From an uncultured Thermomicrobiales bacterium (lineage in GTDB: Bacteria > Chloroflexota > Chloroflexia > Thermomicrobiales > UBA6265): DNA of 49,666 bases. The stretch is taken from assembly GCA_902806405.1 (NCBI GenBank), contig CADCWL010000250.1, positions 1-49,666 of the forward strand, read 5' to 3'. A model generated the notes under the pieces. That model was not told where the DNA came from. It searched no databases and saw only the letters and a list, made by a program, of their open reading frames with translations. Both the position numbers and the translations under genes were made by a program. Within the stretch, counting starts at the first letter, position 1; each line of letters starts with the position of its first letter. Of the stretch, positions 30,626 through 32,143 are shown piece by piece.

Positions 30626-31858
30626 ATGGAAGTCAACGCGGGCGATACGGCATGGGTTCTGATGTCGACGGCGCTGGTCATGCTGATGACCCCCGCGCTG
30701 GGCTTCTTCTACGGCGGTCTCGTTCAGCGCAAAAACGTCCTCTCGACCATCATGCACTCGTTCTTTATCCTGGCGCTGATCAGCGTCCAGTGGGTGCTCT
30801 GGGGGTACACGCTCGCGTTCGGACCGAGCCAGGGCGGCTTCATCGGCGGCTTCGACTTCCTGGGGATGAATGGCGTCGGGGAAACCCCGATCGGCTACGC
30901 CCCGACGATTCCCCACCTCGCGTTCGTCGCCTACCAGATGATGTTCGCGGTCATCACACCGGCCCTGATCACGGGCGCCTTCGCCGAGCGGAAGCGGTTC
31001 AAGGCCTTCGTCGTCTTCTCCCTGCTGTGGGCCACGTTCGTCTACGCTCCCGTCGCGCACTGGGTCTGGAATCTCGACGGGTGGCTCCTGAAGTATGGGG
31101 CGCTCGACTTCGCCGGCGGCACCGTTGTCCACATCACCTCCGGCGTCACCGCCCTCGTGGCGGCGGGCATGCTCGGCAAGCGGATCGGCTTCGGCAGCAA
31201 GGACGCGCTGGAGCCGCACAATCTGACCTACACCGTGCTCGGCGCCGGACTCCTCTGGTTCGGTTGGTTCGGCTTCAACGCCGGCAGCGCGCTTGGCGCG
31301 ACGGGTCGCGCGGCGAACGCCTTCCTCGTCACCAACACGGCCGCCGCCATGGGCGCCCTGACCTGGATGACGGTCAGCTGGCTGCGCCACGGGCAGCCGA
31401 GCGTGCTCGGCGCGGCCGCCGGCGCGGTGGCCGGCCTGGTGGCGATCACCCCGGCCGCCGGCTTCGTCGACACCCAGGCTTCGATCCTGATCGGCCTCGG
31501 CGCGGGCGCGTTCTGCTTCTTCGCCGTCGATCTCTTGAAGAAGGTCGTCAAGCTCGACGACGCGCTCGACGTCTTTGCCGTCCACGGCGTGGGCGGGATC
31601 TGGGGTGCGCTCGCGACCGGTCTCTTCGCGAGAGAAGCGGTCAGTGGCCTCGACGGGGTCAACGGTCTCTTCTTCGGCAATCCGGAGCAACTCCTGAAGC
31701 AGGCGGTCGCCGTCGGGGTGGTGATCGTCTACGCCGGTGCGGTCAGCTGGATCATCCTCAAGGCGATCGACCTGGTGATCGGCCTCCGCGTCCCGGAGCA
31801 GGAGGAGGTGCTCGGCCTCGACACGACGACCCACGGCGAGCTCGCCTACCAGCTCTAG
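30626..31858 (+). CDS. amt: ammonium transporter
   Basis: NAGDTAWVLMSTALVMLMTPALGFFYGGLVQRKNVLSTIMHSF; APVAHWVWN; GTVVHITSGVTALVAAGMLGKR; FGWFGFNAGSALGATGRAANAFLVTNTAAAMGALTWM; VHGVGGIWGALATGLFA. Confidence 0.97.
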   Translation: MEVNAGDTAWVLMSTALVMLMTPALGFFYGGLVQRKNVLSTIMHSFFILALISVQWVLWGYTLAFGPSQGGFIGGFDFLGMNGVGETPIGYAPTIPHLAFVAYQMMFAVITPALITGAFAERKRFKAFVVFSLLWATFVYAPVAHWVWNLDGWLLKYGALDFAGGTVVHITSGVTALVAAGMLGKRIGFGSKDALEPHNLTYTVLGAGLLWFGWFGFNAGSALGATGRAANAFLVTNTAAAMGALTWMTVSWLRHGQPSVLGAAAGAVAGLVAITPAAGFVDTQASILIGLGAGAFCFFAVDLLKKVVKLDDALDVFAVHGVGGIWGALATGLFAREAVSGLDGVNGLFFGNPEQLLKQAVAVGVVIVYAGAVSWIILKAIDLVIGLRVPEQEEVLGLDTTTHGELAYQL

Positions 31859-31916
31859 CGGCCCCAGGAATCTACGGTCCGGCGTTCTGGGCCATGTTCT
31901 CAGGAGGAGACCCGAC

Positions 31917-32051
31917 GTGCTGATTCTCGCCTTTGCCGCTTTCGTGATCCTCGTCCTGGCCTGGCTGGTCGCCCCCAACGGCGAAGTCGCGGTTGGCCCG
32001 TCGCCGGCGACCGTGGAGCCTCTGACGATCGGGGAACCCGCCACCGCGTAG
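31917..32051 (+). CDS. 44-aa single-TM microprotein downstream of amt
   Basis: GTG start 9 nt after a consensus AGGAGG: MLILAFAAFVILVLAWLVAPNGEVAVGPSPATVEPLTIGEPATA*, 58 nt after the amt stop; absent from ORF track (below length cut). Confidence 0.7.
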   Translation: MLILAFAAFVILVLAWLVAPNGEVAVGPSPATVEPLTIGEPATA

Positions 32052-32109
32052 CGACGCGGAGAGCCTGGGACGGGGCATCTGGCCGTCGCCGCACCCGACC
32101 GGGACCGTC

Positions 32110-32143
32110 GACGAGGGGCGAGCCGACCAGCTCGCCCCTCGTC
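32110..32143 (+). terminator. intrinsic-terminator-like hairpin after amt operon
   Basis: GACGAGGGGCGAG-ccgaccag-CTCGCCCCTCGTC, 13-bp perfect stem. Confidence 0.75.

Follow-up and report, generated by a model that had tools for sequence, protein, structure and literature searches.

A membrane microprotein as a putative accessory subunit of Amt ammonium channels in a Chloroflexota lineage mostly without GlnK

Background

Control of Amt channels is known to lie with PII proteins, which are soluble, or with the C-terminus of the channel itself. The stretch of DNA analysed here (hereafter the window), 49,666 nt of an uncultured Thermomicrobiales bacterium (Chloroflexota; contig CADCWL010000250.1), carries an amt gene that is followed by an unannotated 44-codon open reading frame (ORF), and it raises the question of whether a tiny membrane protein can belong to an Amt channel and, if so, what it would do there. 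The original prediction, made from the letters of the window, read the locus as one unit of amt, microprotein and terminator, and proposed that the microprotein might regulate or stabilise Amt. Here, we ask whether the ORF is a gene, how far it and its linkage to amt extend across Chloroflexota, and how its distribution relates to that of GlnK/PII, and we then weigh the roles that such a protein could have.

Results

The ORF was recovered as predicted from its Shine-Dalgarno motif to its stop, with an identical peptide (Table 1), while the predicted distance of 58 nt from the amt stop holds for the GTG and not for the AGGAGG. Since this GTG is the earliest ATG, GTG or TTG downstream of the previous in-frame stop, the start is unambiguous among common start codons. 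The C-terminal region of the window Amt is retained (RVxxxExxGLDxxxHGExAY), so that the channel is not degenerate in this part, which in E. coli AmtB contributes to GlnK binding.

Table 1 Features of the amt locus in the window
Feature	Position	Strand	Remarks
amt	30626..31858	+	ammonium channel, 410 aa; PF00909 E=3e-132, TIGR00836 above cut-off
Shine-Dalgarno AGGAGG	31902..31907	+	9-nt spacer before GTG; read from sequence
microprotein gene, GTG start, 44 codons	31917..32051	+	single-TM, Amt-linked family
hairpin, 15-bp perfect stem, 6-nt loop	32109..32144	+	no U-tract; likely end of amt-microprotein unit
acidic ORF, 114 aa	32240..32584	+	3' of hairpin; unannotated

Two checks named in the original prediction, conservation of the peptide and its Shine-Dalgarno motif downstream of amt and a synonymous bias among substitutions, both came out in favour of a gene. 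In 41 related genomes, the 44-aa query produced seven foreign matches with loci (L002-L008), all seven adjoining amt genes that are 73-85% identical to the window amt. When 26 amt genes of the same and the sister family were scanned, 24 were followed, at a distance of 23-233 nt, by a small hydrophobic ORF, mostly with a Shine-Dalgarno motif. In relatives, 72 of 78 microprotein genes have a motif of Shine-Dalgarno type, and median spacing is 55 nt. Differences in ten non-overlapping pairs of microprotein genes fell on codon positions 1, 2 and 3 in the numbers 59, 41 and 149 (p=3e-18), and almost every pair compared had a dN much lower than its dS, a pattern which indicates that the codons are under purifying selection. 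On this comparative evidence the ORF is a real gene, chance being excluded by the recurrence of a hydrophobic ORF at 24 of the 26 loci together with the selection on codon positions. A second conserved unannotated gene, the 114-aa ORF of Table 1, lies beyond the hairpin; it has homologues of 47-68% identity downstream of amt and the microprotein in relatives (e.g., L002, L004, L006, and L008) and no match in Pfam or NCBIfam.

The hairpin that follows the microprotein gene is real and folds better than shuffled sequences (z -3.9), and its stem is longer than the 13 bp (32110-32143) first reported. Its reading as a terminator survived in part: it lacks a T-run, a pattern scan for intrinsic terminators did not call it, and it is not a canonical U-tract terminator, but a role as the end of an amt-microprotein unit is plausible. 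Among 73 loci, stems of at least 13 bp were found 3' of the microprotein at 34, in the spacer between amt and microprotein at 8, and in shuffles at 3. Strong hairpins that follow the microprotein and seldom interrupt the spacer fit a single unit, and we infer that amt and the microprotein gene are co-transcribed.

The family is compact and its conserved part is a helix. Among 86 distinct proteins of 25-50 aa (median 43), all within the size of single-helix accessory microproteins (about 50 aa or less), the shared motif is A-x3-F-x2-L-x3-W-x3-P, with A conserved in 80%, F in 90%, L in 68%, W in 95%, and P in 98% of members. The spacing of three to four residues (i+3/i+4) places all five on one face of the helix, and the tail behind the P is variable, poorly conserved, and as short as four residues. 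That the window protein has one transmembrane helix, as predicted, was borne out by hydropathy and by an AlphaFold model of the protein alone, which has a helix at residues 2-18 and a low-confidence tail and is uninformative on partners. K and R are missing from the first ten residues of all 86 members, position 2 is D or E in 49, and the 12 residues behind the P include K or R in 61. Read with the positive-inside rule, the absence of K/R at the N-terminus and their presence after the P suggest a topology with the N-terminus outside and the C-terminus inside. In an AlphaFold model of an in-frame read-through chain from another locus (L097; Amt, linker, and microprotein, the stop replaced by Gly as a tether only), the microprotein again formed a confident helix, and the PDB matches of this model were Amt structures only.

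Linkage to amt extends far beyond close relatives. A profile of 24 members was run over 399 Chloroflexota genomes without positional information, and 26 of its 30 top-ranking loci adjoin amt. Among the remaining four, a lipoprotein (L147) was rejected as a false match, and the other three are genuine relatives in sequence that lie away from amt in their contigs. All 40 genomes with a match at E<1e-3, a count that includes one lipoprotein match, also hold amt, compared with 150 of the 399 overall at the threshold used. The microprotein, moreover, adjoins divergent Amt paralogues of about 32-35% identity (L041, L060, L083, and L261). At these loci, from SAR202 and other Chloroflexi, the microproteins (L041 732-869; L060 2323-2487 and 2698-2778; L083 2724-2858; and one at L261) adjoin or separate divergent and canonical amt genes, and some have basic C-termini, e.g., LPKLFLKK. 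With a wider profile, whole genomes behind 44 named amt loci were searched, and all seven that matched bear Chloroflexi-type titles (Chloroflexi, Chloroheliaceae, Oscillochloris, and SAR202), several of them with the microprotein next to a divergent paralogue, with no match in the genomes of other phyla behind these loci; judged by these genomes, the family so far appears only in Chloroflexota. Genetic association with one transporter family, Amt, is thus what we observe, and the Amt association put forward in the original prediction is strongly supported genomically across the phylum.

These data bear on two readings in which the microprotein would have no part in the channel. It could be a toxin-like or selfish hydrophobic peptide riding at the 3' end of the amt unit, as small hydrophobic peptides are common among type I toxins and one of the 24 profile members has a marginal match to HokA (E=0.047), the only one to the Hok family; however, orthologues stably linked to amt throughout the phylum, the purifying selection on codons, the absence of any Rfam element at the locus, and the lack of a toxin-family match for the window protein make this highly improbable. 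Alternatively, the protein might be co-expressed with amt, remain unbound, and do a nitrogen-stress job of its own, such as recruiting a protease or another enzyme. Neighbours in an operon need no contact, and the three members away from amt (L127, L141, and L144, each a good family member whose stretch of contig shows no amt) would suit such a role, but the co-location with amt is phylum-wide and includes the divergent paralogues, and every genome with a good match also has amt, and we rate this reading as distinctly unlikely. The genome of L141, one of the three, has an amt-linked microprotein as well, which makes L141 its second copy.

The absence of GlnK noted in the original prediction was confirmed, with no PII gene next to amt and no PII-domain protein detected in the window's genome, which is 91% complete. 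Across 234 amt loci, the microprotein was found without a detected adjacent PII gene at 79 (71 without nearby PII and 8 with too little sequence to exclude it), PII without the microprotein at 92 (84 plus 8), both at 2, and neither at 54, the rest being undetermined. The two carrier families are represented by 34 genomes, of which 31, that of the window among them, yielded no PII domain; the three exceptions are a partial match at a contig edge and two weak matches. Within the same order, a strong PII gene lies some 100 nt from amt in all 15 genomes with the other kind of amt. A wider sample of the phylum gave 45 genomes with the microprotein and no PII, 3 with both, 24 with PII only, and 24 with neither, and, as most of these genomes are drafts, single absences of PII are weak evidence while the overall pattern is not.

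A Fisher test at the loci (p 1e-7) ignores ancestry, and we do not use it as repeated evidence, because the tree offers no independent replication and a phylogenetically independent comparison of microprotein and PII has no power. In the amt tree, microprotein-bearing loci fall into what is essentially one large clade, within which the microprotein is absent here and there, for which reason its mutual exclusion with PII looks like one evolutionary event, a single handover and not a repeated replacement. The microprotein-bearing amt lineage would, on this distribution, mostly have lost GlnK. Some loci of this lineage have no nearby microprotein, and in one genus two close amt relatives (L110 and L112) lack a recognisable one. 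Two loci (L202 and L206) have amt, glnK, and microprotein together and stand, by the order of the drawn tree, at the edge of the microprotein-amt clade.

Whether the microprotein took the place of GlnK is a separate matter. Its helix or cytoplasmic tail might gate Amt by nitrogen status and so provide acute control without PII, a reading to which the near-exclusion of the two genes at amt loci, the genome-wide lack of PII in most carriers, the occurrence of both genes at transitional loci on the edge of the clade, and the predicted cytoplasmic C-terminus all lend weight. We nevertheless consider it unlikely: a single lineage makes the exclusion a single event, the tail is variable, can shrink to four residues, and has no visible sensor, and neither protein accompanies amt at 54 loci. 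Nor did a docking signature on the cytoplasmic face withstand its control. Of 20 Amt positions that separate microprotein-bearing from PII-bearing channels, 19 lie in the cytoplasmic half, and splits among other clades mostly gave 15-19 of 20 (range 10-19), so that we rejected this candidate. In an Amt alignment over L009-L248, almost every clade other than those of the microprotein lineage has most of its defining positions in the cytoplasmic half, and this holds less within that lineage; depth differs.

Discussion

We consider it probable that the microprotein is an accessory subunit of Amt, in a lineage mostly without GlnK, and we present it as a putative one. The linkage survives divergence on the scale of a phylum and is to amt rather than to any other gene, and what is conserved in the protein is a helix face; together these argue for a dedicated Amt partner, though the linkage could stem from shared expression rather than contact. 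The role of regulator or stabiliser given in the original prediction fits everything observed. In such a scheme, the microprotein would probably be translated from the amt transcript and cross the membrane once, its N-terminus facing out and its C-terminus reaching the cytoplasm; the helix face that carries the conserved residues (A, F, L, W, and then P near the cytoplasmic membrane surface) could pack against Amt, and the packed helix might stabilise, assemble, or tune the Amt trimer. It may have assumed part of GlnK's control or, alternatively, be no more than the sign of a channel for which GlnK has become dispensable. Bolder still, and possible but on balance doubtful, is the proposal that a whole bacterial Amt lineage swapped control by GlnK for a transmembrane microprotein dedicated to the channel, which would be the first such integral subunit known from the Amt/Mep/Rh superfamily in bacteria, with the loci at the clade edge that hold both genes recording the handover.

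Compared with known systems, the microprotein resembles GlnK/PII (PF00543) in being encoded next to amt and, by our reading, in acting on Amt, but PII forms soluble trimers and blocks the pore from its cytoplasmic side, whereas the microprotein is a 44-aa single membrane helix with no Pfam match, PF00543 included, and is found where PII is mostly absent. Tiny proteins with one transmembrane helix and ties to a transporter are alike in form. AcrZ, KdpF, MgtS, and MgtR/MgtU stabilise or modulate their transporters (PMC10710835; AcrZ structure, PMC7267776), but these belong to other transporter families and share no sequence family with the microprotein, for which no curated family in Pfam or NCBIfam, including those of KdpF, AcrZ, MgtS, and other named small transporter proteins, gave a match. 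In the sections drawn on here, a 2023 review of transporter modulators describes small proteins for several transporters and gives Amt only GlnK/PII partners (PMC10710835). Small subunits of the CcmD, TorE/NapE, and CcoQ type are likewise single helices in membrane complexes, and CcmD has its N-terminus outside and its C-terminus inside (PMC10903887), but they belong to haem export or respiratory complexes, and only a marginal match to FixQ was seen, in two members (E=0.034). Marginal and unrelated matches of this kind are all that family members gave, and the family extends across Chloroflexota yet is missed by current annotation libraries.

In the open-access literature, where we found no integral membrane partner or membrane microprotein for a bacterial Amt, the nearest published case is sP36 of the archaeon Methanosarcina mazei, a soluble, GlnK-dependent protein of 61 aa that modulates AmtB1 via GlnK1, being cytoplasmic under nitrogen limitation and moving to the membrane after an ammonium upshift (PMC10714827). 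Both would be small proteins that modulate an Amt, putatively so for the microprotein. By its description, sP36 is set apart from the microprotein, which is a predicted integral membrane helix of bacteria mostly without PII; no PII protein was detected in the window's genome. With an amt-linked family that hardly ever occurs at PII-linked amt loci, two questions become testable, namely by what means Amt is controlled where PII is missing, and whether this transporter superfamily has tiny helices as true subunits.
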